From Rathayibacter agropyri (GTDB lineage: Bacteria > Actinomycetota > Actinomycetes > Actinomycetales > Microbacteriaceae), in assembly GCF_013249015.1 (NCBI RefSeq), contig NZ_JABRPL010000004.1, positions 62,001 to 126,000 of the forward strand: a stretch of DNA of 64,000 nt. Direction: 5' to 3'. Position 1 is the first letter of the stretch, and the number at the start of each line of letters is the position of its first letter. The notes beneath the pieces are model-generated. The model did no database searches. It saw only the letters and a program-made list of their open reading frames with translations, and was not told the origin of the DNA. Made by a program: the position numbers and the translations under genes. This document shows, piece after piece, positions 37,764 through 61,124 of this stretch.

Positions 37764-37843
37764 CGAAATGTCGCGAGATGTGCTCAAACGGTCGAGAGAG
37801 GGCGCCGTGGTGGACGATCTCGACCGCTACGGGCGATCTCGCG
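37764..37843 (-). repeat. 80-bp nested palindromic element, copy 1 (minus orientation)
   Basis: Read on the minus strand: CGCGAGAT (37843-37836), 10 bases, a 9-base inner arm ATCTCGACC on the plus strand at 37817-37825 pairing with GGTCGAGAG at 37790-37798 (8 of 9, extended by one pair outward), an 18-base centre, 10 bases, then ATCTCGCG and the tail ACATTTCG ending at 37764. Outer and inner arms are each self-complementary. Geometry is identical to the copies at 38883 and 61045, but the third base of the inner arm is swapped (A to T) together with its partner, so pairing is kept. Confidence 0.88.
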
Positions 37844-37944
37844 AGGTTCGAGGCCACTCCTCCACATGGAGCGTGGCGGGGCGCTGTCCACAGAGACGCG
37901 GGCGTGGCGAGCGTGAGCAGGAGGTGGCGCGGCAGGGTGCCCTC

Positions 37945-38892
37945 ATGAATCAGATGCCCGACCTCCTCATTGCTCGCGAACTGAGCAGTCTCGGTGCCGA
38001 TGCGCGCCGGCTCCGACCCGACAGATCGAAGGGGCGTCACCGTCGTCTCGCGCCGGGCGTCTTCGTGGAGGCGCGCGCGTTCGGGGAACTCCCCGACCGA
38101 GAGCAGCACCTGCTGAGGGCACGTGCGATCGCCCGAGTGCGCGGCGGCGAGGAGCCGGTCCTCGCTCTGCACTCTGCAGCGGCGGTGTGGGCGCTGCCGC
38201 TCCTCTCGCGCAGCCCTGCCCAGGTGCATCTCCTCGGGGCGCCAGGTGTCGCCGATGGGGTGGACACTGTTCGGCACCGCGAGCGGGTCCGGGACGGCGA
38301 CATCGTCGAGCGCGACGGCCATCTTGTCACCAGCCTTGAGCGGACTGTGCTCGATCTGGCGCGCCTCGCTTCCCGCGAGGACGCGATCAGCGCCATCGAC
38401 CATGCGCTTCACGAGGAGTCGGGCGGGCTCGACAAGGGCGACCTACTCGAGCGAATCGAGGACTTCCGCGGGTACCGCGGAGTCAAGCAGGCGCGCTTCC
38501 TGCTCGCGCTGGGGGAGGGAGCGGCGGGCTCAGCGGGGGAGAGCGTGAGCAGATTGCGGATGGTCGACTGCGGTGTCCCCATGCCGACGCTGCAGAGCAC
38601 TTTCCACGACCATCGCGGCTTCATCGGCAGGGTCGACTTCGACTGGCCGGGCTGCTCGGCTGTCGGCGAGTTCGATGGTCTCGCGAAGTACCGCCAACCC
38701 CGGATGCTCGCGGGTGCGGATCCGGCGGACGTCGTCATCAGGGAAAAGCTCCGCGAGGATCGCCTCCGGGCGCTCGGCCTGCGCGTGATCCGGTGGACCT
38801 TCGCTGATCTCCACGGTCGGCATGCGCTGTGCGCTCTGTTGCGAACCGCAGGCCTGCCGCCCACTCACCGGGGCGTGCCCTCCGCGAGATAG
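37945..38892 (+). CDS. AbiEi-like winged-helix protein with C-terminal nuclease-like domain
   Basis: A 315-residue protein. The N-terminus (DLLIARELSSLGADARRLR ... HRRLAPGVFVEA) resembles the winged-helix domain of AbiEi-type antitoxins, followed by a central region (LALHSAAAVWALPLL, ERTVLDLARLASREDAI). The C-terminal 90 residues resemble the DUF559/Vsr-type restriction-endonuclease fold: VDFDWPG, VGEFDGLAKY with acidic residues and Lys near 241-247, then VIREKLREDRLRALGLRVIRWTFADL. Nuclease activity is an inference. Such genes are frequent, usually solitary, in actinobacteria. It lies between two oppositely oriented 80-bp palindromic elements, and its stop codon (38890-38892) falls inside the second. 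Start ATG at 37945 aligns with the family start; a weak GGCAGGG precedes it. Confidence 0.7.
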   Translation: MNQMPDLLIARELSSLGADARRLRPDRSKGRHRRLAPGVFVEARAFGELPDREQHLLRARAIARVRGGEEPVLALHSAAAVWALPLLSRSPAQVHLLGAPGVADGVDTVRHRERVRDGDIVERDGHLVTSLERTVLDLARLASREDAISAIDHALHEESGGLDKGDLLERIEDFRGYRGVKQARFLLALGEGAAGSAGESVSRLRMVDCGVPMPTLQSTFHDHRGFIGRVDFDWPGCSAVGEFDGLAKYRQPRMLAGADPADVVIREKLREDRLRALGLRVIRWTFADLHGRHALCALLRTAGLPPTHRGVPSAR

Positions 38893-38962
38893 CACGGATC
38901 GGACGAGATTTGGCTCCGTGGCAGGGTATCTCGTCCGCGAAGTGGAATCTCGCGACATTTCG
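38883..38962 (+). repeat. 80-bp nested palindromic element, copy 2 (plus orientation)
   Basis: CGCGAGAT 38883-38890, 10 bases, GGACGAGAT 38901-38909, 18-base centre, ATCTCGTCC 38928-38936, 10 bases, ATCTCGCG 38947-38954 and tail ACATTTCG 38955-38962. Both arm pairs are perfect complements. The element starts within the last codons of the AbiEi/nuclease-like gene. Confidence 0.92.
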
Positions 38963-39384
38963 GGGAGCAGGAGGGCCGGGGCCGGAGACGCGACACGCCC
39001 GGGTTGCACGGGTGGCGCATCTGTGGGAGACTCCTCTAGTTCAAAATTTCTTCCCGCGCGGCCTGCCGCACAAGGAGGAACACTGCCAGGCAGTGCCGAG
39101 ACCGCATCGCGGAGGCTCGACCCGAGAGGGCGGCCCAGCGGGTGCGACGTTGAGGCGGCGGGTAGCAGAACGACAACAACCGACATCTCAACGGGCTCTC
39201 CGTGCGTCGTGCGTTCTGCATGCCGATCGGAGCGCTCCAGGTGCGGTGCTTTTGACAGAAGAACACTGGTTGCACGTATCCGGGTCACCGGAGTTCCTTC
39301 GCGAGCGCGTCCAATGCGAGACGAGTCCGGCTTCGGTCGGGGGAGTCGCGTACGACGCAATAACAAGAGAGTGAGAGATCACAC
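38963..39384 (+). promoter_or_regulatory. S10 operon promoter region and leader
   Basis: Gene-free stretch of 422 bases before rpsJ (492 counting copy 2 of the palindromic element). Promoter candidates: TTGCAC 39004-39009 with GAGACT 39027-39032 (17-base spacer), and TTGACA 39252-39257 with GTATCC 39276-39281 (18-base spacer). Between them lies the AT-rich patch TTCAAAATTTC and a hairpin CACTGCC-A-GGCAGTG at 39081-39095 preceded by GGAGG. No leader peptide is convincing. It may contain an r-protein (L4-type) control site, but I cannot recognise one. Confidence 0.4.
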
Positions 39385-39693
39385 ATGGCGGGACAGAAGA
39401 TCCGCATCCGACTGAAGTCGTACGACCACGAGGTCATCGACACGTCGGCGCGCAAGATCGTCGACACGGTCACCCGTGCCGGCGCCACGGTCGTCGGCCC
39501 CGTGCCGCTGCCAACCGAGAAGAACGTGGTCTGCGTGATCCGTTCGCCTCACAAGTACAAGGACAGCCGCGAGCACTTCGAGATGCGCACCCACAAGCGC
39601 CTCATCGACATCATCGACCCGACGCCCAAGGCGGTCGACTCCCTCATGCGTCTCGACCTGCCGGCCGACGTCAACATCGAGATCAAGCTCTAA
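39385..39693 (+). CDS. rpsJ: 30S ribosomal protein S10
   Basis: S10 (also NusE in antitermination complexes), 102 residues, normal length. Recognised from [55 protein letters not shown] and VNIEIKL. First gene of the S10 operon; the preceding gene is not tuf, unlike in many bacteria, because 3.3 kb of accessory genes lie between. Confidence 0.98.
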
Positions 39694-39707
39694 GGAGGAG
39701 TGCCACC

Positions 39708-40376
39708 ATGTCTGTCACTGTTTCCCCCACGCTGAAGACCAGCAAGGGCCTCCTCGGCACCAAGCTCGGAATGACCCAGGTCTGGGACGAGAACAACAAG
39801 CTCGTGCCGGTCACCGTCATCGAGATCAGCCCCAACGTCGTGACCCAGGTCCGCACGGAGGAGAAGGACGGCTACACCGCCGTTCAGCTCGCTGCCGGCG
39901 CCGTCGACCCGCGCAAGGTGAACAAGCCCGCCGCCGGTCACTTCGAGGCCGCTGGCGTCACGCCCCGTCGCCACCTCACCGAGGTCCGCACCTCTGACGC
40001 GTCCGACTACTCGGCCGGCCAGGAGCTGACCGTCGATGCCGTCTTCGAGGCCGGCACCAAGGTCGATGTCGTCGGCACCAGCAAGGGCAAGGGCTTCGCC
40101 GGTGTCATGAAGCGTCACAACTTCAAGGGCGTCTCGGCTTCGCACGGTTCGCACCGCAACCATCGCAAGCCCGGCTCCATTGGCGCCTCCTCGACCCCCA
40201 GCCGCGTGTTCAAGGGCATGCGCATGGCCGGTCGCATGGGTGGCGAGCGCGTCACCGTGCTCAACCTCAAGGTGCATTCCGTCGACGCCGAGAAGGGCCT
40301 GCTGCTCGTCAAGGGCGCTGTCCCCGGTGCCCGCGGTCGCCTCGTGTTCGTTCGCAACGCCGTGAAGGGAGCGTAG
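39708..40376 (+). CDS. rplC: 50S ribosomal protein L3
   Basis: L3 of 222 residues, an early assembly protein close to the peptidyl-transferase centre. Family marks: [64 protein letters not shown] and the C-terminal VFVRNAV. AAGGAGGAG precedes the ATG by about six bases, a strong ribosome site. Confidence 0.98.
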
Positions 40377-40380
40377 TTTC

Positions 40381-41043
40381 ATGGCTACCTCTGTCGACAT
40401 CATCGACGTCAAGGGCCAGAAGGCGGGCTCGATCGAGCTTCCCGCCGCGCTCTTCGATGTTCAGACCAACGTCCCTCTGATCCACCAGGTCGTCGTGGCC
40501 CAGCTGGCCGCAGCGCGTCAAGGAACCCACTCCACGAAGAACCGCGGTGAGGTCTCCGGAGCCGGTCGCAAGCCGTTCAAGCAGAAGGGAACCGGTCGCG
40601 CACGTCAGGGCTCGATCCGCGCCCCGCACATGACCGGTGGTGGCGTGGTCCACGGACCGACACCCCGCAACTACTCGCAGCGGACCCCCAAGAAGATGAT
40701 CGCCGCCGCGCTGCTCGGCGCTCTCTCGGATCGCGCGCGCGGTGCCCGCATCCATGTGGTCGAGTCCCTCGCCCTCGGCGACACCCCGAAGACCAAGGAC
40801 GTCCTCGTCCTCCTCGACTCCCTCCAGGTGTCGCGGAACGTCCTCGTGGTCCTCGAGCGCGACGACTTCATCGCCGAGCTCTCGCTTCGCAACGTGCCGT
40901 TCGTGCACATCCTGCCGGCCGACCAGCTCAACGCGTACGACGTGCTCGTCTCCGACGACATCGTGTTCTCGAAGGGCGCGCTCGACGCGTTCATCGCGGC
41001 CAAGTCGGGCGTCGAGTCCAACAAGGAAGAGGTGAACGCATGA
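40381..41043 (+). CDS. rplD: 50S ribosomal protein L4
   Basis: L4 of 220 residues. The exit-tunnel loop is [31 protein letters not shown] in family pattern, intact, so no macrolide-resistance change is obvious. In E. coli L4 also represses the S10 operon; whether it does so here is unknown. Starts four bases after rplC and its stop overlaps the rplW ATG. Confidence 0.97.
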
Positions 41044-41348
41044 GCCAGTCCGCCGCGTTCAACAAGGACCCCCGCGACGTCATCATCTCCCCGGTGGTCT
41101 CGGAAAAGTCCTACGGCCTGATCGACGAGGGCAAGTACACCTTCGTGGTCGACCCGCGCTCGAACAAGACCGAGATCAAGCTCGCCATCGAGAAGATCTT
41201 CGGCGTCGAGGTCGCATCGATCAACACGCTGAACCGCCAGGGCAAGACCCGCCGCACCAAGTTCGGCACCGGCAAGCGCAAGGACACCAAGCGCGCGATC
41301 GTCACGCTGAAGTCCGGCTCCATCGACATCTTCACGAGCGTCGGCTGA
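41040..41348 (+). CDS. rplW: 50S ribosomal protein L23
   Basis: L23 of 102 residues at the tunnel exit, docking site for trigger factor and SRP. Family marks: [39 protein letters not shown] and [20 protein letters not shown]. The ATG overlaps the rplD stop (ATGA). The stop codon sits in the loop of a small stem TCGGC-TGA-GCCGA at 41341-41353. Confidence 0.97.
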
Positions 41349-41375
41349 GCCGAAGAAGCGTAGAGGAAACAGACA

Positions 41376-42215
41376 ATGGCTATTCGTAAGTACAAGCCCA
41401 CGACCCCCGGTCGCCGCGGCTCCAGCGTTGCCGACTTCGCCGAGATCACTCGCTCGACGCCCGAGAAGTCGCTCCTGCGCCCGCTGTCCAAGACCGGTGG
41501 CCGCAACAACTCCGGCCGCATCACGACGCGTCACATCGGTGGTGGCCACAAGCGCCAGTACCGCCTGATCGACTTCCGTCGCAACGACAAGGACGGCGTC
41601 AACGCCAAGGTCGCTCACATCGAGTACGACCCCAACCGCACGGCGCGCATCGCGCTGCTCCACTTCGTGGACGGCACCAAGCGCTACATCCTGGCCCCGA
41701 ACAAGCTCTCGCAGGGCGACATCGTGGAGTCGGGTGCCGGCGCCGACATCAAGCCCGGCAACAATTTGCCGCTGCGTAACATCCCGACCGGTACGGTCAT
41801 CCACGCCATCGAGATCAAGCCGGGAGGCGGCGCCAAGCTCGCCCGCTCGGCCGGCACCTCGGTGCGCCTCGTCGCCAAGGACGGTCCCTACGCGCAGCTC
41901 CGCCTGCCGTCGGGTGAGATCCGCAACGTCGATGCGCGCTGCCGCGCCACGATCGGCGAGGTCGGCAACGCCGAGCAGTCGAACATCAACTGGGGCAAGG
42001 CCGGTCGCATGCGCTGGAAGGGCGTTCGCCCGACCGTCCGCGGCGTCGCGATGAACCCGGTCGACCACCCGCACGGTGGTGGAGAGGGCAAGACGTCCGG
42101 TGGACGCCACCCGGTCAGCCCCTGGGGTCAGTCCGAGGGACGCACCCGTCGCCCCAATAAGGAAAGCGACAAGCTCATCGTTCGCCGCCGCACCGCCGGT
42201 AAGAAGCGCAAGTAG
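41376..42215 (+). CDS. rplB: 50S ribosomal protein L2
   Basis: L2 of 279 residues, one of the most conserved ribosomal proteins, needed for subunit association and peptidyl transfer. Marks: [40 protein letters not shown], and the catalytic-centre loop [20 protein letters not shown] with the conserved histidine. Fully intact. Confidence 0.98.
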
Positions 42216-42227
42216 GAGTTGTAGAAG

Positions 42228-42509
42228 ATGCCTCGCAGTCTCAAGAAGGGCCCCTTCGTTGACGACCACCTGCTCCGCAAGGTGTTCACCGCTAACGAAG
42301 CCGGCAACAAGAACGTCATCAAGACCTGGTCGCGCCGATCGATGATCATCCCGGCGATGCTGGGTCACACCATCGCGGTCCACGACGGTCGCAAGCACAT
42401 CCCTGTGTTCGTCACCGAGACCATGGTCGGCCACAAGCTCGGCGAGTTCGCCCCTACTCGGACCTTCCGCGGTCACGAGAAGGACGACAAGAAGGGCCGT
42501 CGCCGCTAA
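42228..42509 (+). CDS. rpsS: 30S ribosomal protein S19
   Basis: S19 of 93 residues in the 30S head. Marks: [47 protein letters not shown] and [13 protein letters not shown]. Its TAA stop is exactly the loop of a hairpin with nine-base perfect arms (42499-42519). Confidence 0.98.
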
Positions 42510-42519
42510 GCGGCGACGA
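42499..42519 (+). promoter_or_regulatory. Hairpin with the rpsS stop codon as its loop
   Basis: CGTCGCCGC, then TAA (the rpsS stop), then GCGGCGACG: perfect nine-base arms with a three-base loop. It lies 15 bases before the rplV start in mid-operon. Could act in mRNA processing, pausing or termination-reinitiation. Confidence 0.7.
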
Positions 42520-42533
42520 GAAGGAGGAGAGAA

Positions 42534-42899
42534 ATGGTGGAGTCGATCGCACGCGTGCGACACATCCGCGTCACCCCCCAGAAGGCTCGCCGTGTCGTGA
42601 ACCTGATCCGCGGGAAGCAGGCTCAGGAGGCACTTGCCATCCTGAAGTTCGCGCCGCAGGGCGCGTCCGAGCCCGTCTACAAGCTCGTCGCCTCGGCGAT
42701 GGCCAACGCTCGCGTCAAGGCCGATGCCTCGAACGAGTACCTCGACGACCAGGACCTGTTCGTGTCCCGCGCCTTCGTCGATGAGGGAACCACCCTCAAG
42801 CGATTCCAGCCCCGTGCTCAGGGTCGTGCCTTCCGCATCAACAAGCGCACCAGCCACATCACCGTCGTGCTGGCCACTCCTGAGGAGGGGACCAAGTAA
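42534..42899 (+). CDS. rplV: 50S ribosomal protein L22
   Basis: L22 of 121 residues, lining the exit tunnel. Marks: [25 protein letters not shown], and the beta-hairpin tip region [26 protein letters not shown] without deletion. Strong AAGGAGGAG site upstream. Stop and rpsC start overlap as TAATG. Confidence 0.97.
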
Positions 42900-43657
42900 T
42901 GGGTCAGAAAGTAAACCCCTACGGTTTCCGTCTGGGAATCACCACCGACCACGTGTCGCGCTGGTTCTCCGACAGCACCAAGAAGGGCCAGCGGTACAGC
43001 GACTACCTCGCCGAGGACGTCAAGATCCGCCGTCTCCTCGCGACGCAGCTCGACCGTGCAGGCGTTGCCCGCATCGAGATCGAGCGCACCCGCGATCGCG
43101 TCCGCGTCGACATCCACACCGCCCGCCCGGGCATCGTGATCGGTCGTCGTGGCGCCGAGGCCGAGCGCATTCGCGCCGACCTCGAAAAGCTCACGGGCAA
43201 GCAGATTCAGCTCAACATCCTCGAGGTCAAGAACCCCGAGGCCGAGGCTCAGCTGGTCGCTCAGGGCATTGCCGAGCAGCTCTCCGCCCGTGTGGCTTTC
43301 CGCCGCGCGATGCGTAAGGGTCTGCAGGGCGCGCAGCGCGCTGGCGCCAAGGGCGTCCGCATCCAGGTCTCCGGCCGCCTCGGTGGCGCCGAGATGAGCC
43401 GCTCGGAGTTCTACCGCGAAGGACGCGTGCCGCTGCACACTCTCCGCGCGAACATCGACTACGGCTTCTACGAGGCGAAGACGACCTTCGGCCGCATTGG
43501 CGTGAAGGTCTGGATCTACAAGGGCGACATCACCAACAAGGAGCTCGCCCGCGAGCAGGCGAACAGCAAGTCGTCGCGCCCCGAGCGCAGCGACCGTCCC
43601 CGCCGTGCACCCCGCCAGCAGAGCGAGGCGCCGGTCGCAGCAGGAGTTGAGGCATAA
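42899..43657 (+). CDS. rpsC: 30S ribosomal protein S3
   Basis: S3 of 252 residues, part of the mRNA entry channel and helicase activity. Marks: [22 protein letters not shown], the KH domain with [17 protein letters not shown], and [35 protein letters not shown]-terminal extension of about 40 residues ([23 protein letters not shown]) is Arg/Ser/Pro-rich and likely disordered, as in other actinobacteria. Confidence 0.98.
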
Positions 43658-43659
43658 CC

Positions 43660-44079
43660 ATGTTGATTCCGCGTCGAGTCAAGCACCGCAAGCAGCACCA
43701 CCCGGGCCGCTCCGGCCAGGCCACCGGCGGCACCAAGGTGTCGTTCGGTGAGTTCGGCATCCAGGCCCTCACCCCCGCCTATGTGACCAACCGGCAGATC
43801 GAGTCCGCTCGTATTGCCATGACGCGCCACATCAAGCGCGGCGGGAAGGTGTGGATCAACATCTACCCCGACCGCCCGCTGACCAAGAAGCCCGCCGAGA
43901 CCCGCATGGGTTCCGGTAAGGGCTCGCCGGAGTGGTGGGTCGCGAACGTCAAGCCGGGCCGCGTCCTCTTCGAGGTCGCCGGTGTCGATGAGCAGCTTGC
44001 TCGCGAGGCCATGACCCGTGCCATCCACAAGCTGCCCCTCAAGGCACGCATCATCAAGCGCGAGGAGGGAGACGCGTAA
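43660..44079 (+). CDS. rplP: 50S ribosomal protein L16
   Basis: L16 of 139 residues, which helps position A-site tRNA. Marks: [58 protein letters not shown] and [25 protein letters not shown]. Two bases after rpsC; its stop overlaps the rpmC ATG. Confidence 0.98.
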
Positions 44080-44405
44080 TGGCGATCGGATCCAAGGAGC
44101 TCGTACCCGCCGAGCTCGACACTTTCGAGGACGAGCGTCTCGTCACCGAGCTGAAGAAAGCCAAGGAAGAGCTGTTTAACCTTCGCTTCCAGTCGGCCAC
44201 CGGCCAGCTCGACACCAACGGCCGCCTCCGTGCCGTCAAGCGCGATATCGCCCGCATCTACACGGTCATCCGTGAGCGCGAGCTGGGTATCCGCGCCACC
44301 CCCGCACCCGTCGAGGCCCCGGCCAAGGCGGAGAAGAAGCCCAAGACCAAGAAGGCCGCCAAGGCCGAGGTCGAGGCGACCGAGTCGACAGAGGAGGCCA
44401 AGTAA
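44079..44405 (+). CDS. rpmC: 50S ribosomal protein L29 with long C-terminal extension
   Basis: L29 near the tunnel exit. The core ([58 protein letters not shown]) is normal, but the protein is 108 residues instead of about 65-80. The extra tail after residue 72 is Ala/Lys/Glu/Pro-rich ([20 protein letters not shown], then acidic [10 protein letters not shown]) and probably disordered. Its position by the exit could allow contact with nascent chains or targeting factors; this is only inference. Confidence 0.96.
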
Positions 44406-44719
44406 TGGCAACCGTCAATGACACCGCCGGCCACGAGTCGGCCGCCCATGACGTCAAGCAGGAGGGCGCTCGCGGATACCGCAAGACCCGCCGCGGCTAC
44501 GTCACCAGCGACAAGATGGACAAGACCATCACCGTCGAGGTCGAGGACCGCGTGAAGCACCCCCTCTACGGCAAGGTCATCCGCCGCACCTCGAAGGTCA
44601 AGGCTCACGACGAGCTGAACACCGCGGGAATCGGTGACCTCGTCGTCATCAGCGAGACCCGTCCCCTCAGCGCCTCCAAGCGCTGGCGCCTGGTCGAGAT
44701 CCTCGAGAAGGCCAAGTAG
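44405..44719 (+). CDS. rpsQ: 30S ribosomal protein S17
   Basis: S17 of 104 residues, a primary 16S-binding protein. The core ([44 protein letters not shown]) is preceded by a roughly 25-residue N-terminal extension ([20 protein letters not shown]). The stop codon lies in a perfect 22-bp palindrome. ATG overlaps the rpmC stop. Confidence 0.97.
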
Positions 44720-44734
44720 GCCGCGGCCTACTTG
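44713..44734. promoter_or_regulatory. Perfect 22-bp palindrome across the rpsQ stop codon
   Basis: CAAGTAGGCCG is followed directly by its exact reverse complement CGGCCTACTTG. The rpsQ TAG is in the left arm. It is 18 bases before the rplN ATG. As RNA it forms an 9-10 bp stem with a minimal loop; possible processing or pausing site between rpsQ and rplN. Confidence 0.7.
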
Positions 44735-44752
44735 AGTTAGCAGGAGAGACAC

Positions 44753-45121
44753 ATGCTTCAGCAAGAATCCCGAGTCAAGGTCGCCGACAACACCGGCGCC
44801 AAGATGCTCCTCACCATCCGAGTCCTCGGAGGCTCCGGCCGCCGATACGCCGGTCTCGGTGACGTCATCGTTGCCACCGTCAAGGACGCGATCCCCGGTG
44901 GGAACGTCAAGAAGGGCGATGTGGTCAAGGCCGTCATCATCCGAACCATCAAGCAGACCCGTCGATCGGACGGCTCGTACATCAAGTTTGACGAGAACGC
45001 CGCCGTCATCCTCAAGAACGACGGGGACCCCCGCGGTACCCGCATCTTCGGACCGGTCGGTCGCGAGCTCCGCGACAAGAAGTTCATGAAGATCGTCTCG
45101 CTGGCACCGGAGGTTATCTAG
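44753..45121 (+). CDS. rplN: 50S ribosomal protein L14
   Basis: L14 of 122 residues at the subunit interface. Marks: [60 protein letters not shown] and [31 protein letters not shown] site upstream. Begins the spc part of the cluster. Confidence 0.98.
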
Positions 45122-45123
45122 TC

Positions 45124-45483
45124 ATGGCCAAGATCAAGAAGGGTGACCTCGTCCAGGTCATCTCGGGGGCTACCCAGGAGCGCGGCGGAGACCGCGGCAA
45201 GCAGGGCAAGGTCCTCGAGGTACTGGTCGAGCGCAACCGCGTTGTCGTCGAGGGTGTGAACTTCGTCAAGAAGCACACTCGCGTCGGCCAGACGCAGCGA
45301 GGCTCGAAGGAGGGCGGCATCGAGACCGTCGAGGCGTCGATCCACATCTCGAACGTCGCGCTCGTCGACCCGAAGACCAAGAAGCCGACCAGGGTCGGCC
45401 ACCGCAACGTGGCCGTCACCAAGGACGGCGTGACCAAGACCGTTCGCGTGCGCTACGCGAAGGCGTCGGGTGAGGAACTGTAA
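45124..45483 (+). CDS. rplX: 50S ribosomal protein L24
   Basis: L24 of 119 residues, an assembly initiator at the tunnel exit. Marks: [31 protein letters not shown] (KOW motif), [13 protein letters not shown] and [20 protein letters not shown]. Two bases after rplN; stop overlaps rplE (TAATG). Confidence 0.97.
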
Positions 45484-46067
45484 TGACTGACACCACCGCA
45501 GTGGCTGCGAAGGTTCAGCCGCGGCTCAAGGCCAAGTACCAGGCCGACATCATCCCCGCTCTCAAGGAGCAGTTCGGTTTCGGCAATGTGCACCAGGTCC
45601 CCGGCCTGGTCAAGGTCGTCGTGAACACGGGCGTCGGCGAGGCTGCCCGCGACGGCAAGATCATCGACGGCGCGGTCAAGGACCTCACCGCCATCACCGG
45701 TCAGAAGCCGCAGGTCACGAAGGCCCGCAAGTCGATCGCCCAGTTCAAGCTGCGCGAGGGTCAGGCCATCGGCGCGCACGTCACCCTCCGGGGCGACCGC
45801 GCGTGGGAGTTCCTGGACCGCCTGCTCTCGGTGGCGCTGCCGCGTATCCGCGACTTCCGTGGTCTCTCGGACCGCCAGTTTGACGGCAACGGCAACTACA
45901 CCTTCGGCATCACGGAGCAGTCGATCTTCCACGAGATCGACCAGGACCGCATTGACCGCGTTCGCGGCTTCGACGTGACCGTCGTGACCACCGCGAAGAC
46001 CGATGACGAGGGACGCGCGCTGCTCAAGCAGCTCGGCTTCCCGTTCAAGTCCTCGGACAACGCGTAA
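45483..46067 (+). CDS. rplE: 50S ribosomal protein L5
   Basis: L5 of 194 residues, binding 5S rRNA. Marks: [87 protein letters not shown] and the C-terminal FPFKS. In most operons rpsN follows; here a strong terminator and a 290-base gap follow instead. Confidence 0.98.
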
Positions 46068-46077
46068 GCAATAGCCT

Positions 46078-46758: not shown

Positions 46759-46764
46759 TCCCTC

Positions 46765-47301: not shown

Positions 47302-47303
47302 TC

Positions 47304-51973: not shown

Positions 51974-51986
51974 GGATCGGCCGTCC

Positions 51987-52778: not shown

Positions 52779-52779
52779 C

Positions 52780-52817
52780 GCCTGTCCTGTCGTTGCTGTC
52801 GTTGCCTGTCCTGTCGT
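52780..52817. repeat. Short direct repeat upstream of a membrane protein gene
   Basis: GCCTGTCCTGTCGT occurs at 52780-52793 and again at 52804-52817, separated by ten bases that partly repeat it (TGCTGTCGTT). It overlaps the ribosome-binding region of the minus-strand gene at 52778. Probably replication slippage; small. Confidence 0.7.
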
Positions 52818-52961
52818 CGGAATCACGACCGAGTGTGCCGAGCCGCCAGGGGCGCGGGGCGATCGCGACACGCACTGTGCCACGGGAGGGCTCCTCGACG
52901 CGATGGCGATGTGGGCGACGCACTCGACAGGCCCTCCGACCGGGCTGGCGGGGTCAGCCGG

Positions 52962-54881
52962 TCAGCTGTCGATCACCCGGACCAGCTCCTCGATGAACGC
53001 TGCGAAGTCGGTGGAGCGACGGACCAGGCGCTGCACCTCCGCTCGCTCCGCGAAGACCTCGACGAACTGGTCGAAGACCGACTGGAAGGTGCTGCGCCCT
53101 GCCGACGCGAACGCGATCATCGCGATGACGTTGACCCGCTGCTCGCCCCACTCCATCGGAGCGTCGTTGACAACGATTGCGATGGACGTGCGGCGCGCGC
53201 TCATTGCCATCGCGTGCGGCACGGCGAGGTTATCCGTGAATGCCGTCGAACTCATCCGTTCCCGCTCGATCGCCCCGGCGACGTAGTCCTCGTCGATGAT
53301 GCCGCCGGCGATCATGCGTCGACCGAGCATCCGGATCATCGCCGCTTCGTCGCGGGCGTGCACGTTGCGATAGAACAGTGACTCGTCGAAGAACTGCAGC
53401 AGCTCGTCCTTAATCTGCGCCCGGCGCCGGTGTCTGCGGACGCGCGCGATCGCCCGGCGCACCGTCTCCACGTCGTGATCGGTGAGAAAGGGCTGCACGA
53501 CGACCACGTCATCGGCGTAGGGCCGCTCGGCGATCGTTGTGAGCACGAGGTCGGCGGTCAGCCGATCCCAATCGACATCGCTGCGCGTTATCAGGGAGCG
53601 GACCTCGACCTCGGTTCCCAGCGACCGTTCGACCCGGAGCCGCAGCATGTGCGCGAGGTCGTAGTAGTTCGGGCACACGATGACGCACGAGAGCCGCTCC
53701 TCCCGCCGCGAGACGCGCTCCAGGAAGGATCCGACGTGCAGGGCGATGTAGGCGATCTCGTCCTCATTCACCGCGATACCGCGCCGGCGCTGCAATCCAC
53801 TGGCGAGGAACACCGCGATCTCGTATGTCATCGGGTAGCTGGTCTTGATGGAGCGCGTCAGCGGGTTTCGCGAGTAGCCGCCCTCGGAGGCGCGGGCGAC
53901 GAGATTGCGGACGTGCAGGGCGAGCCGCACGATGAAACCCTCATCGTCCAGGTCGACGAGGTACTCGCGGTGGACGTCAGCGACGAGGGCGCGGACCACG
54001 GCCAGGTCCTCCGGGTCGAGATAGTTCTCGGCTACCGAGGCGACCGGCTCGTTCTGCCCGGGGGTCGCCACGCGGGTCGTCATCAGGATCGCGAGCTGCG
54101 CGAGCTCGGCGTCGGTCAAACGCGTCACGAAGTGCCGCTCGACCAGTTCCGCCAGCAGCGCGGCCAGCTCGCCGTGGACCGCGGGGGAGGGGCGGGAGCC
54201 GGAGGGGTCCCCGATGCCTCGCGCGACCCGGTCGACCGCGATCGCGATGTGCAACAGGACGCTGTTCACTCCGTAGTCATTGATGTAGTAGCCGCGGCTC
54301 TCGAGCGCGGCCAACAGCTCGGTCTTGAACGCGCCAAGGCCGGGGGAGGCGAACTCGCGCTGCACATCGTCAAGCGTGAACACACCCTGCGCGCTCTCGT
54401 CGCGGAACATCCGTGAGATCAAGCGGCGACGCGCCTCCTCGCTGCCCTCCAGCCGCACGGCGGGGCCGCGGCGGAGCAGGCTGAGTCCTGCTTCGTCGGC
54501 GAGTGCCTTCACCCGCCGCAGATCCGCATCGATGGTCGACTCGCTCACGGACAGCACCTCGGCGAGGGGGACCACGTCAAGTCCCTCGTCATTCTCGACC
54601 AGCCGGCGCACGATGCTGTACAGCCGGTCGCGTGGGGTATCCGGCTCCACGTCCCGGCTGCGCTGCGCGTCGAGGAACGCGGCGTAGGCATCGCGCGCGA
54701 GACGGTAGCCGTTGGCGGAGGACTCGACGGGCTCCAGCGGAGCGGCCTGCGCCTTGACCGCGGTGACGTAGCTGCGGACGCTGCGGGTCGTCACCCCGAG
54801 CCGGTCGGCCAGCTCGTGCGCGGTCACCCAGCCGTCGGCACGGGAGAGGTACTCCAGCAGTCGTTCGCGGTTGTCAGGCAT
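52962..54881 (-). CDS. mtlR: PRD-containing PTS regulator (MtlR-like activator)
   Basis: Transcription activator of 639 residues controlled by PTS phosphorylation. Domains in order: N-terminal HTH (LLEYLSRADGWVTAHELADRLGVTTRSVRSYV), a second HTH near residue 100 (VPLAEVLSVSESTIDADLRRV), two PRD domains with histidines (VNSVLLHIAIAVDRV, VERHFVTRLT, LALHVRNLVARA, IAYIALHVGSFL), an EIIB-like domain beginning SCVIVCPNYYDLAHMLRLRV with a Cys, and a C-terminal EIIA-like domain with the His in NLAVPHAMAMS. This is the MtlR architecture. Divergent from the EIIB-HPr-EI-mtlAFD genes, so it most likely activates them; the 236 bases between (54882-55117) should hold its operator, which I could not define. 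The gene symbol is inferred from architecture plus context. Confidence 0.85.
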   Translation of the reverse strand: MPDNRERLLEYLSRADGWVTAHELADRLGVTTRSVRSYVTAVKAQAAPLEPVESSANGYRLARDAYAAFLDAQRSRDVEPDTPRDRLYSIVRRLVENDEGLDVVPLAEVLSVSESTIDADLRRVKALADEAGLSLLRRGPAVRLEGSEEARRRLISRMFRDESAQGVFTLDDVQREFASPGLGAFKTELLAALESRGYYINDYGVNSVLLHIAIAVDRVARGIGDPSGSRPSPAVHGELAALLAELVERHFVTRLTDAELAQLAILMTTRVATPGQNEPVASVAENYLDPEDLAVVRALVADVHREYLVDLDDEGFIVRLALHVRNLVARASEGGYSRNPLTRSIKTSYPMTYEIAVFLASGLQRRRGIAVNEDEIAYIALHVGSFLERVSRREERLSCVIVCPNYYDLAHMLRLRVERSLGTEVEVRSLITRSDVDWDRLTADLVLTTIAERPYADDVVVVQPFLTDHDVETVRRAIARVRRHRRRAQIKDELLQFFDESLFYRNVHARDEAAMIRMLGRRMIAGGIIDEDYVAGAIERERMSSTAFTDNLAVPHAMAMSARRTSIAIVVNDAPMEWGEQRVNVIAMIAFASAGRSTFQSVFDQFVEVFAERAEVQRLVRRSTDFAAFIEELVRVIDS

Positions 54882-55117
54882 CAGGCTCCAGGCGTGCGGA
54901 CCGGAGCGGACGCGAGGAGCGCCATGACCCCGCCGCGGGCCCGCTCGGAGCGGGCAGCGGGTCGTACGTCCTGGCAGTCAATCACCTCGGTAGGACACGG
55001 GGGAGCCCCCGCGCCGCCGTGGCTTCCGCCCCCGCGGAAGATTGTCTCCGTCACTCCCGCACTCCTCGTCGCGGATGCTTGGATGGACCACGACCCGGAC
55101 GCGAGGAGGCGAACGCG

Positions 55118-55498
55118 GTGCGGAAGATCCTTATCGTCTGCGGTGCGGGCGCATCGAGCACGTTTCTGGCCCACCGGCTCAGAGCGGGCGCGAAGGAACA
55201 CGGCATGGATGCTGTGTTCCGATCCGAGACCCTCACGGGTCTCGAGGAGTCTCTCCCCGATGCGGACGTCCTGCTGGTGGGTCCGCACCTCGAGTCGCAG
55301 TTCGACGTACTCCGCCTCCGCGCGGAGAATGTGGGAGCCGCGGCTGCCCTCCTCCCGCACGACGTCTTCGGAGCGCACGGTGCCGATGCCGTGCTCGAGA
55401 ACCTGCCCATCCTCTTCGCCGCTCGCGCGGTCGTCGCGGGAACGGACAGGGACTCCTCCACCCGCCCGGACGCCGAGCCCGACTCCGGGCACCACTGA
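55118..55498 (+). CDS. Stand-alone PTS EIIB subunit (lactose/cellobiose-like)
   Basis: A 126-residue EIIB protein starting at GTG 55118 with GAGGAGG about eight bases upstream. Phosphorylation site Cys8 lies in ILIVCGAGASSTFLAHRL; then DVLLVGPHLESQFDVLRLRA, as in lactose/cellobiose-type IIB. The last 20 residues (TDRDSSTRPDAEPDSGHH) are disordered. There is no matching stand-alone EIIC or EIIA in the window: MtlA carries its own B domain. It may serve as a phosphoryl carrier to MtlR, or belong to a lost transporter. First gene of the PTS cassette. Confidence 0.82.
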   Translation: MRKILIVCGAGASSTFLAHRLRAGAKEHGMDAVFRSETLTGLEESLPDADVLLVGPHLESQFDVLRLRAENVGAAAALLPHDVFGAHGADAVLENLPILFAARAVVAGTDRDSSTRPDAEPDSGHH

Positions 55499-55533
55499 TG
55501 CAGTCATCGCTGCAAATTCAAGGAGAAACGTTC

Positions 55534-55800
55534 ATGGTTGAACGCACCGTGCAGGTTGCATCATCAAAGGGCCTTCACGCCCGCCCCGCCTCGCTCTTCA
55601 GCCAGGCCGCGGCGAAGTCGGGTCAGAAGGTCCTGATCGCGAAGGGCGACGCCACCCCGGTCAACGCCGCGTCGATCCTCGGGATTATCTCTCTCGGCAT
55701 CGAGCACGGCGACGCGCTCACTGTCAGCGTCGAGGGCGACAACGAGGAGGCCGTGCTCGAGGAGCTCGCCACGTTCCTTTCGACGGATCACGACTCCTGA
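55534..55800 (+). CDS. ptsH: Phosphocarrier protein HPr
   Basis: General PTS phosphocarrier, 88 residues, passing phosphate from EI to EIIA domains. His15 is in GLHARPAS. The Ser46-type site (Ser47 here, in NAASILGIISLGIEHG) is present, though HPr kinase is generally absent from actinobacteria. ATG at 55534 follows AAGGAG by about eight bases. Located 36 bases after the EIIB gene and 166 before ptsI, so it belongs to this operon. Confidence 0.95.
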   Translation: MVERTVQVASSKGLHARPASLFSQAAAKSGQKVLIAKGDATPVNAASILGIISLGIEHGDALTVSVEGDNEEAVLEELATFLSTDHDS

Positions 55801-55966
55801 CGGCGTCATAATCCGTCGGGGACGATCGCGGTCCGCGAGGGCGATCCTCACGAGGTCGCATCCCACCCCTTCTGAGTAGGACGACCCGGCCGCGGTCTCG
55901 ATTCCGACTCCCTCCACTCGATTACCCAGCTCCTCACCCAGGAGAGCACGACAGGAACGAGCACCC

Positions 55967-57658
55967 ATGACGCTGTCCACTCCTCAGACCGCCTACGCCT
56001 CCGCCAAGCTCCAGGGCACCGGAGTCGGACGAGGACTGGCCCTCGGGCCGGTTCTGCGCATGCCCGAGCCTCTCCCCGAGCCGGAGGACGTCGCCAGCAC
56101 CCGCACCGTCGTCCAGGAGGAGGAGCGCGCGGTCTCGTCGCTTTCTGCCACCGCCGCGACGATTCGCCACCGTGGTGAGCGGGCCGGTGGGTCGGCGAAG
56201 GACGTTCTCGACGCACAGGCCCTCATGGCCGAGGACCCATCGCTCGCCGAGGACGTGAAGGCGCGGATCGCCGGGGGCAAGACCGCCGAGCGCGCCGTGC
56301 ACGAGGCCTTCGCCGGCTTTCGTGACCTTCTCGTGGCGATGGGCGGCTACATGGCCGAGCGCGCGACCGACCTCGACGATGTCTCCCAGCGCGTCGTCGC
56401 CCATCTGCGCGGCGTCGCCGCTCCCGGTGTTCCTGAGTCGGACGAGCCGTTCGTGCTCGTCGCCCGCGATCTCGCTCCGGCTGACACCGCCCTGCTCGAT
56501 CTCGATAAGGTGCTCGGCCTGATCACCAGCGACGGCGGTCCGACCTCGCACACCGCGATCCTTGCCCGGGAGAAGTCGATCACCGCGATCGTCGGCACAT
56601 CCGGCGCCCTCGACTTGCGAGACGCGCAGCTCGTGATCCTCGACGCCTCCTCCGGCGTCGTGACGGTGAACCCATCCGATACCGAGATCAGCGCCGCCAA
56701 GACCTCGATTGCCGAGCGCGCGGCGATGCTCGCCGCTCCGGTCATCCCTGGCGCCCTCGCCGACGGCCACGCCGTGCCGCTGCTCGCGAACCTCGGCTCG
56801 GCCGACGGAGCCGCGAATGCAGTGGAGCTCGGAGCCGAAGGCGTTGGCCTGTTCCGGACCGAGTTCCTCTTCCTTGACGCGAAGCAAGCGCCGACCGTCG
56901 CCGAGCAGGCCGAGCAGTACACCCGCCTGCTCGCCGCCTTCCCCGGCCGCAAGGTCGTCGTCCGCGCACTCGACGCGGGTGCCGACAAGCCGCTGAGCTT
57001 CCTCAACGACAACCACGAGGAGAACCCGGCGCTGGGGCTGCGCGGGTTGCGCGCCCTCCGTGCCAGCGAGCAGATCCTGCGCGACCAGCTCACCGCCCTT
57101 GCGCAGGCCGACGCCGCCACCGATGCCGACCTGTGGGTCATGGCGCCGATGGTCGCGACCGTCGACGAGACCCGCTATTTCACGTCGATGGCGCGGGAGC
57201 TCGGCATCCGCACCGCTGGTGTGATGGTGGAAGTCCCCTCCTCCGCGCTGCTCGCCGACCGGATCCTCGGAGTCGCTGACTTCGCCTCGATCGGCACCAA
57301 CGATCTCACCCAGTACACGCTTGCTGCGGACCGGATGCTCGGCACCGTCTCGGCGTTCCAGGACCCGTGGCACCCGGCCGTGCTCCGCCTCGTCGGCGAG
57401 GTCGGCCGCGCGGGAGCGGCGCTGGGCAAACCCGTCGGTATCTGCGGCGAGGCCGCAGCAGATCCGCTGCTCGCCGTGGTCCTCGTCGGCCTCGGTGCGA
57501 CGACCCTCTCGATGTCGCCGTCAGCTCTCGCAGACGTGCGCGCCGAGTTGGCCGAGCACACCCTCGCCGATGCGAAACGGTACGCGGAGCTCGCGCTCGC
57601 GGCCGATAGCGCCGCCGACGCCCGTTCCGCGGTGACGGAGGCGATCGCCGCCTCCTGA
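55967..57658 (+). CDS. ptsI: PTS enzyme I
   Basis: Phosphoenolpyruvate-protein phosphotransferase, 563 residues. Phosphorylated His195 is in SDGGPTSHTAILARE. PEP-binding segments: EGVGLFRTEFLFLD, NPALGLRGLRA, VMAPMVATVDETRY, SIGTNDLTQYTLAADR, and the Cys region GKPVGICGEAAADP near the C-terminus. Normal length. Enzyme I is normally single-copy, so its presence inside a mannitol cassette is noteworthy. Confidence 0.97.
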   Translation: MTLSTPQTAYASAKLQGTGVGRGLALGPVLRMPEPLPEPEDVASTRTVVQEEERAVSSLSATAATIRHRGERAGGSAKDVLDAQALMAEDPSLAEDVKARIAGGKTAERAVHEAFAGFRDLLVAMGGYMAERATDLDDVSQRVVAHLRGVAAPGVPESDEPFVLVARDLAPADTALLDLDKVLGLITSDGGPTSHTAILAREKSITAIVGTSGALDLRDAQLVILDASSGVVTVNPSDTEISAAKTSIAERAAMLAAPVIPGALADGHAVPLLANLGSADGAANAVELGAEGVGLFRTEFLFLDAKQAPTVAEQAEQYTRLLAAFPGRKVVVRALDAGADKPLSFLNDNHEENPALGLRGLRALRASEQILRDQLTALAQADAATDADLWVMAPMVATVDETRYFTSMARELGIRTAGVMVEVPSSALLADRILGVADFASIGTNDLTQYTLAADRMLGTVSAFQDPWHPAVLRLVGEVGRAGAALGKPVGICGEAAADPLLAVVLVGLGATTLSMSPSALADVRAELAEHTLADAKRYAELALAADSAADARSAVTEAIAAS

Positions 57659-57779
57659 TCCGTGGACCCGCTCGACCCACCCCCAGCACCACCACTACTG
57701 CACCACCCCGCCATTCGGGAGTCGGGACGCCTCAGGAAGGTCTCGGTCACCCGGCCCTAGAAATCGGAGAACACACCAC

Positions 57780-59342
57780 ATGACAACGACGTCAGCGACG
57801 TCGACGCGCGGTGGAGCGCGCGTCCACGTCCAGCGCTTCGGCACCTTCCTCTCGGGAATGGTCATGCCGAACATCGCGGCCTTCATCGCCTGGGGCTTCA
57901 TCACGGCCCTCTTCATCCAGACCGGATGGCTCCCGCTTCTCGGTGTCGACGCCACCTGGGTTCAGCAGCTTGGCGGCTGGAGCACCGACCCCGACGTGGT
58001 GAACGTCGGACTCGTCGGCCCGATGATCACCTACCTCCTCCCGCTCCTCATTGCGAACACCGGTGGCCGCATGGTCTACGGCGCGCGCGGAGGAGTGGTT
58101 GGCACCATCGCGACCATGGGCGTCATCGTCGGCGCTGGCATTCCAATGTTTATCGGGGCCATGATCATGGGCCCGCTCTCGGCATGGCTGATGAAGAAGG
58201 TCGACGCGCTCTGGGACGGCAAGATCAAGCCCGGCTTCGAGATGCTGGTCAACAACTTCTCGGCCGGAATTCTCGGCCTGCTTCTTGCGGTCCTCGCCTT
58301 CCTCGGCGTCGCGCCGGTCATCGCTGCCTTCTCCGGTGCACTCGGAGTCGGCGTGGAGTGGCTGGTCAACGCCGGTCTGCTCCCGCTGACGTCGATCTTC
58401 ATCGAGCCGGCGAAGATCCTGTTCCTCAATAACGCGATCAACCACGGCGTGCTTACCCCGCTGGGCGTGCAGCAGGCGGAGGAGACGGGCAAGTCCTTCC
58501 TCTTCCTCCTCGAGGCCAACCCCGGCCCCGGAATGGGCGTCCTGCTCGCGTTCTCGATCTTCGGCGTCGGCGCCGCCCGCGCCTCCGCTCCCGGTGCAGC
58601 GATCATCCACTTCATCGGCGGTATCCACGAGATCTACTTCCCGTACGTGCTGATGAAGCCGGCCCTGCTCGCCGCCGTTATCCTCGGCGGCATGACCGGA
58701 GTCGCGACGAACGTCGCTTTCAACTCCGGCCTCCGCGCCCCCGCCTCGCCCGGTTCGATCATCGCGGTGCTCCTGCAGACCGCGAACGACAGCTTCCTCG
58801 GCGTGATCCTCTCGGTGATTCTCGCCACCGCCGTGTCGTTCCTCGTCGCCTCGGTGATCCTGCGAGCGAGCCGCACGCGCGACCTCGCCGCTGCGGAGGA
58901 GAACGACGACAAGCTCGCCGCCGCCGTCGCCGCGAACGAGGCCAACAAGGGCAAGGACAGCGCCGTCGGCTCGCTCATCAACGCCCGCGGAGCTAATGCC
59001 CCGCAGGACTCCACCGGCGCCTCGACCGCGGGGGCCACGGTGACCGCGACCCAGGTCCGCTCCATCGTGTTCGCCTGCGACGCCGGCATGGGATCCTCCG
59101 CCATGGGCGCCTCGGTGCTGCGCAACAAAATGAAGAAGGCGGGCTATGAGGACGTCACGGTCACCAACAAGGCGATCGCGGCGCTCGAGGACGACGTGGA
59201 CCTGGTCATCACCCAGGCCGAACTCACGGAGCGCGCCCGCCAGCGCACTCCGGGCGCCATCCACGTCTCCGTCGATAACTTCATGAACAGCCCGAAGTAC
59301 GACGAGGTCGTCTCGCTGGTCGCGGAGCAGCACGGCAAGTAG
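57780..59342 (+). CDS. mtlA: PTS mannitol transporter EIICB
   Basis: Mannitol permease of 520 residues that imports and phosphorylates mannitol. EIIC (residues 15-350, several membrane helices) starts VQRFGTFLSGMVMPNIAAFIAWGFITALFI and contains the GGIHEIYFPYVLMKP motif characteristic of MtlA. After a linker rich in Ala and Asn, EIIB follows with phosphocysteine 433 in IVFACDAGMGSSAMGASVLR. The EIIA is separate (mtlF). ATG at 57780; 121 bases after ptsI. Confidence 0.95.
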   Translation: MTTTSATSTRGGARVHVQRFGTFLSGMVMPNIAAFIAWGFITALFIQTGWLPLLGVDATWVQQLGGWSTDPDVVNVGLVGPMITYLLPLLIANTGGRMVYGARGGVVGTIATMGVIVGAGIPMFIGAMIMGPLSAWLMKKVDALWDGKIKPGFEMLVNNFSAGILGLLLAVLAFLGVAPVIAAFSGALGVGVEWLVNAGLLPLTSIFIEPAKILFLNNAINHGVLTPLGVQQAEETGKSFLFLLEANPGPGMGVLLAFSIFGVGAARASAPGAAIIHFIGGIHEIYFPYVLMKPALLAAVILGGMTGVATNVAFNSGLRAPASPGSIIAVLLQTANDSFLGVILSVILATAVSFLVASVILRASRTRDLAAAEENDDKLAAAVAANEANKGKDSAVGSLINARGANAPQDSTGASTAGATVTATQVRSIVFACDAGMGSSAMGASVLRNKMKKAGYEDVTVTNKAIAALEDDVDLVITQAELTERARQRTPGAIHVSVDNFMNSPKYDEVVSLVAEQHGK

Positions 59343-59359
59343 TACGCCACCTCCTCGAA

Positions 59360-59415
59360 GGGAACCCGTAGGGTGCGACAGAGCGGACCCGCTCCGCTCG
59401 CCCCCGCGGGTTCCC
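59360..59415 (+). promoter_or_regulatory. Intercistronic nested stem-loop between mtlA and mtlF
   Basis: GGGAACCCG at 59360-59368 pairs with CGGGTTCCC at 59407-59415, and the long loop contains a second stem GAGCGGA/TCCGCTC. Located 17 bases after mtlA and 35 before mtlF, it may protect or process the mRNA so that EIIA and the dehydrogenase are made at levels different from the membrane permease. Confidence 0.55.
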
Positions 59416-59449
59416 TCGCTGTCAGCACCTTTACGGAAGGACGCACGCC

Positions 59450-59884
59450 ATGAGCGAAGTGCTCACCATCGGACAGATCAACGCCTCCGGCACCGCCACG
59501 ACGAAGGAGGCCGCCATCAAGGAGGCCGCCGACATGCTCGTGGGAGTCGGCGCGGTCACCCCCGCCTACTACGAGGCCATGCTCGCCCGCGAGGCGACCG
59601 TCTCGACCTATATGGGTAACCTCCTCGCCATTCCGCACGGCACCAATGACGCGAAGGACGAGATCCGCTCGTCTGCCCTCTCGTTCGTCCGCTACGCGCA
59701 GCCGATTGACTGGGACGGCAACGAGGTGCGCTTCGTCGTCGGCATCGCCGGGGTCAACAATGAGCACCTCGAGATCCTCTCCAAGATCGCCATCATCTTT
59801 TCGGAGGAGGACGAGGTGCAGAAGCTTCTCGATGCCCCCGATGCGCAAGCGCTCTACAGCCTGCTGGGCGAGGTCAACTCCTGA
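59450..59884 (+). CDS. mtlF: PTS mannitol EIIA
   Basis: Cytoplasmic EIIA of 144 residues that passes phosphate from HPr to the MtlA B domain. Active His63 in [10 protein letters not shown], preceded by the family-typical [14 protein letters not shown] and followed by [31 protein letters not shown] about 11 bases before the ATG. Its stop overlaps the mtlD start (TGATG). Confidence 0.95.
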
Positions 59885-61023
59885 TGGCCACCGCCGTCCA
59901 TTTTGGCGCCGGCAACATCGGCCGCGGCTTCGTTGGCCTGATCCTGCACGGCGCCGGATATGAAATCGTCTTCGCCGATGTCAATGCGGACCTTATTGGT
60001 CAGCTTGCCGCCGCCGACGGTTACGAGGTGCACGAGGTGGGGGAGGAGCCGACGACCCACTTCGTTGACCGCTTCCGCGCGATCGACTCCTCCGCCGACG
60101 AGGAGGCGCTCGTGCGTGAGATCGCCGCCGCCGACATTGTGACGACGGCCGTCGGACCGAACATCCTCCGCTTCGTCGCGCCGGTCATTGCGAAGGGCCT
60201 CGCCGCCCGCGCGGAGTCGGCACCGCGGCTGGCGGTCATGGCCTGCGAGAACGCGATCAGCGCGACCCGCTTGCTCCAGGCCGAAGTCGCGGCGAACCTG
60301 GGCGCGGACGAGTGGGAGCTCGTGCGCTCGCGGGCCGTCTTTGCCGACACGGCGGTCGACCGCATTGTGCCGAACCAGGAGCCGGGTCAGGGCTTGGACG
60401 TTACCGTCGAGACATTCTTCGAGTGGGTCATTGATCGCACGCCCTTCGAGGGCAGCGAGCCGGAGCTCCCGGGCGCGACCTACGTGGACGACCTGGAGCC
60501 GTTTATTGAGCGCAAGCTCTTCACGGTGAACACGGGCCACGCGACGGCGGCCTACGTCGGCTTCGCAGCGGGAGCGCACAAGCTCTCGGATGCGCTCGCG
60601 CTGCCCGAGGTGCGCGACGCGGTGAGGGCGGCGCTCGAGGACACGAAGGCGCTCATCGTTGCGAAGCACGGCTTCAGCGATGCGGAGCAGCAGGCGTACC
60701 TCGAGAAGACGCTGAAGCGCTTCGCTAATCCGTACTTGACGGATACGGTTGATCGGGTGGGCCGCCAGCCGCTGCGGAAGCTCTCGCGGCATGAGCGGTT
60801 CATCGGGCCGGCGGCCGAGCTCGCGGAGCGCGGGCGGGTTCCCGAAGGGCTGATTGCGGCCATTGGCGCTGCGCTGCGCTTTGACGTGCCGGAGGATCCG
60901 CAAAGCGTTGAGTTGAAGCAGAAGCTGGCGGCGCTCTCGCCGGAGGAGTTCGTCGCCGACGTCACGGGCCTGTCCGCCGAGCATCCGCTGTTCCCCCACC
61001 TCGTGGCAATCCTCCGCCCCTGA
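59884..61023 (+). CDS. mtlD: Mannitol-1-phosphate 5-dehydrogenase
   Basis: Oxidises mannitol-1-phosphate to fructose-6-phosphate with NAD; 379 residues. NAD-binding [17 protein letters not shown] at the N-terminus; catalytic region [18 protein letters not shown]; the conserved Lys/Asn segment is represented by [14 protein letters not shown] context (visible as [13 protein letters not shown]). C-terminal helices are complete. Last gene of the cassette; an 80-bp palindromic element starts 22 bases after its stop. Codon choice in the 3' half (more GCGG-ending codons) looks slightly different from the 5' half, but this is an impression only. Confidence 0.95.
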
Positions 61024-61044
61024 CCCCTCAACCCCTCCGCGGTC

Positions 61045-61124
61045 CGCGAGATCGTGGTGAACGGACGAGATCCTCTGCCGAGGCGGGGGATCTCGTCCGT
61101 TCGGGGGCATCTCGCGACATTTCG
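61045..61124 (+). repeat. 80-bp nested palindromic element, copy 3 (plus orientation)
   Basis: CGCGAGAT 61045-61052, 10 bases, GGACGAGAT 61063-61071, 18-base centre, ATCTCGTCC 61090-61098, 10 bases, ATCTCGCG 61109-61116, tail ACATTTCG 61117-61124. All arms are perfect. It fills the gap between the convergent mtlD and lepB genes, where a terminator would be expected. Confidence 0.92.

Follow-up and report, generated by a model that had tools for sequence, protein, structure and literature searches.

Nested palindromes bracket a candidate nuclease gene

We examined 64,000 nt of the Rathayibacter agropyri chromosome (contig NZ_JABRPL010000004.1, positions 62,001 to 126,000; GC content 68%), referred to below as the window, in which two of three 80-bp nested palindromes enclose the gene of a candidate palindrome-specific nuclease. 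Copy 1 (37764..37843, minus strand) lies 12 nt from the preceding plus-strand gene, a putative topoisomerase IB gene (36768-37751), with its tail facing the stop codon. The nuclease gene follows (37945..38892, plus strand; 315 aa), and its own stop codon falls inside copy 2 (38883..38962, plus strand), whose head overlaps it and whose tail points away from the gene. Copy 3 (61045..61124, plus strand) is a dispersed copy between convergent genes, its head 21 nt and its tail 26 nt from the stop codons; an orthologous copy exists in Rathayibacter iranicus. All distances to stops and starts are those of a simple gene finder rather than of a curated annotation, and the gene names topoisomerase IB, rpsJ, mtlD and lepB are readings of translations rather than search results.

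The nearest genome met was that of R. iranicus NCPPB 2253 (G001), with 91% identity over the putative topoisomerase IB gene. "Genus" and "family" denote genome groups around G001; other genomes and loci are labelled with G or L and a number.

The three palindromes are real and share the plan CGCGAGAT-N10-GG(A/T)CGAGAT-N18-(A/C)TCTCG(T/A)CC-N10-ATCTCGCG-ACATTTCG, much as the initial annotation had described them. Their spacers are fixed in length, as it claimed; they are not wholly free in sequence, since the centre (GCCGCGGC) and the bases next to the inner arm keep a weak consensus. Among aligned copies the strand after the tail is G/A-rich. Rfam gave no match in the window at the gathering threshold. 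Across the three palindromes that the window and R. iranicus share as orthologues, 9 of 126 arm and tail sites have changed, against 37 of 114 spacer sites: arms change more slowly than spacers.

A compensatory change in copy 1 had been taken as evidence that pairing is under selection. Copy 1 indeed has T/A in place of the A/T of the other copies, and its right inner arm also starts with C, which is one extra mismatch. Over 42 copies, this pair position reads A-T 27 times, A-A 8, T-T 4 and T-A 3 (12 of 42 mismatched), with the two letters independent of each other (Fisher p=0.35), and covariation of the arms does not exceed that of shuffles in a 33-copy alignment. The change thus gives no support to selection on pairing, and we rejected covarying RNA or compensatory pairing as a signature of the family. 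Spacers and centre pair slightly above the shuffled level (56.3% vs 53.6%, equalled in 21/500 shuffles), their covariation score is equalled in 6/500 shuffles, and in some of the other palindrome families described below the entire element is a near-perfect palindrome; hence hairpin formation may still be of importance, with some selection on pairing.

A many-copy family with constant spacing

Scanning 84,980 genomes, one per species, for ATCTCG(A/T)CC-N5..20-ATCTCGCGACATTT returned 20 stretches, every one from R. iranicus and every one with a spacer of 10, though 5-20 were permitted. The tail 16-mer ATCTCGCGACATTTCG occurs 33 times in the same genome (reversed control: 0). A covariance model finds 37 distinct full-length places there, 88 positions each on the better strand, together with two weak ones; the opposite-strand matches of two double elements are exactly 19 longer. 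Double elements, with a tail at both ends, were seen at L004, L010, L015, L018 and L042, those at L004 and L010 being exactly one 19-bp module longer.

The congener G013 keeps the same geometry but has AAATTTCG as its tail; ATCTCGCGAAATTTCGCGAGAT thereby becomes perfectly palindromic. It holds 31 copies in the 20 stretches examined and 128 covariance-model matches in total over both strands. The initial annotation had proposed a repeat family of fixed geometry, to be abandoned if the genome held no further copies or if spacer lengths varied; R. iranicus (37 full-length places) and G013 (31 copies, same spacing) show many copies and constant spacers. Among the 398 family genomes searched, the tail word is present in G001, G003 and G013.

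A search of plasmid DNA with copy 3 gave no match. Three viral contigs contain the tail 16-mer, with adjoining bases that look unrelated, and eight viral contigs (L366-L373) have one geometry-perfect palindrome apiece.

The bracketed protein and its chromosomal block

The predicted structure of the bracketed protein supports an AbiEi-Vsr assignment. Residues 2-191 and 194-305 of the model align to AbiEi-like and Vsr/I-Bth0305I-type folds, not to an HUH transposase: the N-terminal half is a match to the structure of the AbiEi antitoxin, and the C-terminal half fits the Vsr/I-Bth0305I catalytic fold. From this model we infer nuclease activity of the gene product. Pfam and NCBIfam gave no match for the window protein; across 15 members at E<=0.5, AbiEi_4, AbiEi_1 and two chance-level families were the sole Pfam matches, one member each, and 0/15 matched the Y1/IS200-type transposase family. 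The ratio of nonsynonymous to synonymous substitution rates (dN/dS) is 0.14 against the R. iranicus orthologue and 0.14-0.30 over five pairs, so the gene is under purifying selection.

The gene and its two palindromes behave as one block. With window positions 36768-39693 as query, 12 of 15 genus genomes align up to about query position 984 and resume at about 2222, with a short intergenic region between; the block of copy 1, gene and copy 2, approximately 37752..38988, is therefore missing from them. R. iranicus has the complete block, and G013 has a related gene (57%) with both elements. At the same place G010 holds a distant relative (33%) between two copies of another palindrome, GCTGTCGTTTTCACCGCGCGC-N-GCGCGCGGTGAAAACGACAGC; this second word is dispersed as well, with 26 matches in G010, 12 in G013 and 0 in the other 13 genomes. 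The G010 gene, found without elements of the first family, had cast doubt on a palindrome-flanked cassette, and the doubt was dropped once its flanks proved to hold this second family. Palindromes of the latter also bracket a second, frameshifted nuclease relative at another locus in G013 (L202 1554-2469). The word CGGGATTCCGCGG, present in some empty sites, was rejected as another repeat family (1-4 matches in 12/15 genomes).

A phage or plasmid origin of the nuclease was rejected, no relative being found in viral contigs or phage records. Plasmid matches to the protein amount to one partial match, from Collinsella, and a plasmid search with a distant relative as query retrieved 3 Arthrobacter records.

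Such a protein could also be an AbiEi-type regulator, the palindromes being operators for its own gene and for a genome-wide gene set. The promoter of AbiEi itself contains inverted repeats to which the protein binds, and here the AbiEi-like half comes with one palindrome upstream of the gene. We regard this as very improbable: dispersed copies stand mainly at 3' ends, the downstream copy equals the upstream one in regularity, and the conserved nuclease half would be left unexplained. The suggestion that the palindromes are targets of a dedicated protein is plausible, and the gene between copies 1 and 2 is a strong candidate for it.

Many related genes across the sampled family carry matched palindromes

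To score bracketing, 300 bp upstream of each gene were aligned to 200 bp downstream, direct or inverted. The sample comprised 16 genus loci (close relatives, E<1e-60), the window and the 21 loci returned from outside the genus, 38 in all; L313 and L316 were dropped for short flanks (with wider flanks they score 9 and 25, respectively). Among the remaining 36 close relatives in Microbacteriaceae, 24 score at least 16 and 20 at least 20, compared with 1/140 and 0/140 control genes, a set that excludes genes near the nuclease and genes in L011 and L012 (Fisher p=1e-19, nominal, since several of the 36 are orthologues). When flanks were swapped between loci, 23/1260 combinations scored at least 16, 15 of them inside one word family. 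In the 24 paired genes the upstream copy is centred 171 bp (median) ahead of the match and the downstream copy 45 bp after it. R. iranicus L161, with a score of 15, is nonetheless bracketed by elements of the first family.

Bracketing extends to distant DUF559/MTES_1575-type homologues, 9/14 of which score at least 16, with words including CGCGAGATGCCACTT and GGTGCCCGAGAATGC (L238 and L241 of the 16 loci were dropped, as the gene finder places no gene at their centre). Across the sampled family, an AbiEi-Vsr nuclease gene is thus paired with a bracketing, lineage-specific palindrome. Five word families were distinguished in the genus: family 1, ATCTCG (window, G001, G013); family 2, GTCGTTTTCACC (G010, G013); family 3, CTTGCGAGGGACCCC (G010); family 4, CGAGRCGTCC (G005, G011, G012); and family 5, GAGGGAACCCCGG (G002, G003, G014). 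The bracketing palindromes are also dispersed in R. iranicus, G013, G010 (family 2) and G392; the window has two flanking copies and one dispersed.

Another, unseen transposase might move the palindromes, the nuclease being cargo caught between two copies. In some genomes palindromes occur without a close nuclease, and two geometry-perfect pairs 1.1-1.4 kb apart, L322 659-1850 (G117) and L325 9619-11076 (G289), enclose no recognisable one. Random cargo would be expected to vary; here one gene family is found between the palindromes in many genomes, at regular distances and with differing words, which leaves this explanation a very slim chance.

A common 19-bp ruler

One skeleton, CGAG-N15-CGAG-N22-CTCG-N15-CTCG, underlies word families 1, 4 and 5: the step measures 19 bp, and 18 bp separate the inner six-base arms. 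Run across the family with the single spacing 15/22/15, the pattern was found in 68/398 genomes, in up to 41 places per genome; the reversed control gave 5/398, one place each. Within a genome the letters adjoining CGAG recur, and they differ among many genomes, as judged from at most the first ten places listed per genome: CGAGCGCTACC recurs in G392, for instance, and CGAGTTGCCCC in G289 and G398. In G392 and G092 the nuclease gene is bracketed by two elements of ruler geometry.

The protein co-occurs with the geometry. With presence defined at E<=1e-30 and at most five candidates scored per genome, it was found in 63/68 geometry-positive and 181/330 geometry-negative genomes (p=4e-10, ignoring kinship and genome size). 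Its presence in geometry-negative genomes is expected, because the skeleton is limited to CGAG words.

In one supported case the palindrome word tracks the nuclease and departs from the species tree. In the latter, built on the topoisomerase IB gene, G005 pairs with G002 (100/99), and G014 joins the pair (100/100). The nuclease tree places G005 with G011 and G012 (95/95), and the palindromes of G005 are of the G011/G012 kind. Two long branches of the nuclease tree, G010 and G010c, lie outside this case.

Palindromes gather at gene ends

Copies lie mostly near the 3' ends of genes, as the initial annotation had noted within the window. In 25/37 R. iranicus copies and 21/31 G013 copies a stop codon lies no more than 60 nt from the tail; for the head the counts are 10 and 10. 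At 30 loci in other family genomes, 25 of 31 elements are intergenic, and of these 20 have a stop within 60 nt and 7 a start. Judged by eye, 11/11 other genus genomes that were readable carry some GC hairpin at the copy 3 slot; a 3'-end slot therefore tends to hold a hairpin regardless of its sequence.

Such placement, in other genera as well, and the hairpins at the copy 3 slot would suit host elements, namely terminators or mRNA 3'-end hairpins of one sequence family, with the nuclease merely lying between two gene-end copies. The U-tract of an intrinsic terminator was absent, however: no T-rich positions follow and no A-rich ones precede the 37 R. iranicus and 31 G013 aligned copies, and the arms do not covary. 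Matched pairs occur at 1/140 control genes. Moreover, the words vary by lineage and, in the case examined, go with the nuclease, and a generic terminator would need neither a 19-bp ruler nor a lineage-specific word. A purely host role is in our view unlikely, but less so than the regulator or cargo explanations. Copies at 3' ends may serve as end-of-gene hairpins too, even if they arrived as selfish elements.

Proposed selfish palindrome system

We propose that the palindromes probably serve a selfish nuclease system as its recognition sequences, a system comparable to that of repetitive extragenic palindromic (REP) elements and their REP-associated tyrosine transposase (RAYT) but with an unrelated enzyme. 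The full unit would consist of palindrome, nuclease gene and palindrome. The AbiEi-like half of the gene product would read a short word recurring every 19 bp in two inverted arrays, and the Vsr/I-Bth0305I-type half would nick or cut the DNA at the palindrome. The non-autonomous copies would be the single palindromes, which gather just past stop codons, where they are tolerated and may double as end-of-gene hairpins; word and nuclease would change together from lineage to lineage. Binding and cutting by the protein, and mobility and copying of the palindromes, are steps that we infer from the comparisons above.

In REP/REPIN-RAYT "REPtrons", short many-copy palindromes lie mostly downstream of coding regions, the RAYT (TnpA-REP) gene is flanked by the same palindromes, and the families differ between species (PMC3733652). 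The proposed system resembles them in its working, with an enzyme gene flanked by palindromes that are also dispersed in the genome, and stands outside REP/RAYT by enzyme class and repeat form. REP/RAYT relies on a tyrosine (HUH/Y1, IS200-like) transposase, whereas the model here shows an AbiEi-like and a Vsr/I-Bth0305I fold. REP elements measure 20-40 bp and are tagged by an unpaired GTAG or CGTC; the elements here span about 60-90 bp on a 19-bp ruler, and the 80-bp ones have outer and inner arms and a tail, ACATTTCG or AAATTTCG, with no REP tag form.

Other known systems share single features. Vsr-like (EDxHD) homing endonucleases such as I-Bth0305I, which cut an allele that lacks them and are then copied into it, have the catalytic fold; here the gene is free-standing on the chromosome, palindrome-bracketed and fused to an AbiEi-like half, and no intron or intein was noticed at it. 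Compared with the AbiE type IV toxin-antitoxin system, in which the antitoxin AbiEi has a neighbouring nucleotidyltransferase toxin, AbiEii, as its partner, a nuclease half and palindrome brackets are added. Insertion sequences and their derivatives, miniature inverted-repeat transposable elements, likewise have a gene between repeats and dispersed non-coding copies, but here a whole palindrome forms either end and the protein has no recognised transposase fold; a target-site duplication was not seen, at empty sites too divergent to define the ends. In titles and abstract openings, a literature coverage that omits most subscription journals, palindromes bracketing AbiEi, DUF559 or Vsr-type genes are unreported. 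What we describe looks like an undescribed self-spreading DNA system.

Several observations weigh against this proposal. No two R. iranicus copies are identical, so that fresh copying is not visible, and neither a target-site duplication nor an excision product was seen; empty sites are too divergent to fix the ends. The Foldseek E-value is only 0.8 for the I-Bth0305I and Vsr matches. Twelve of the 36 genes score below 16, including the second R. iranicus gene L253 (score 7), which like others of the twelve shows no palindromes; the dependence among orthologues makes the p-values of the flank test nominal, and kinship and genome size likewise burden the co-occurrence test. Five of the 68 geometry-positive genomes lack the protein at the threshold used, G003 has no nuclease of family 1 despite its family-1 copies, and G006 has no close relative despite 15 geometry places. 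At the copy 3 slot, the other GC hairpins of other species favour a host role, and G005 and G002 have the family-1 inner hairpin alone, without outer arms or tail.

More broadly, we give about even chances to the generalisation that in Microbacteriaceae, and perhaps in actinobacteria widely, AbiEi-Vsr (DUF559/MTES_1575-type) proteins drive a large class of selfish palindromes and are not plain toxin-antitoxin proteins or orphans. Each lineage would have its own nuclease and word, many on the invariant 19-bp ruler, co-evolving, with units sharing slots. To our knowledge, the bacterial palindrome family known to have an enzyme of its own is REP/RAYT. If our proposal is true, a second, independent solution with another enzyme class stands beside it, and proteins annotated merely as DUF559 or MTES_1575 REase gain a role. 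Since both the word and its protein partner vary from lineage to lineage, often with the ruler unchanged, these natural pairs would offer a direct route to the DNA specificity of the AbiEi-like fold and to the spread of palindromic repeats.

Other features of the window and its relatives

The copy 3 slot, between convergent genes, carries an insert of about 13 kb in R. iranicus (G001:C3:288900-302046) and of 14, 7 and 3.5 kb in G003, G013 and G010, respectively, whereas in the window it contains copy 3 alone; it is apparently an island hotspot adjoining the palindrome.

A second palindromic array on the same 19-bp ruler is located at 10180..10371. The word GTGCGATCTGCAGGGG or its variants occurs there five times forward (10186, 10205, 10224, 10243 and 10262) and twice inverted (10333 and 10352), in exact 19-bp steps, the first word starting 27 nt past a stop codon. 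The R. iranicus locus L008 has two inverted occurrences of a related word (1931 and 2002).

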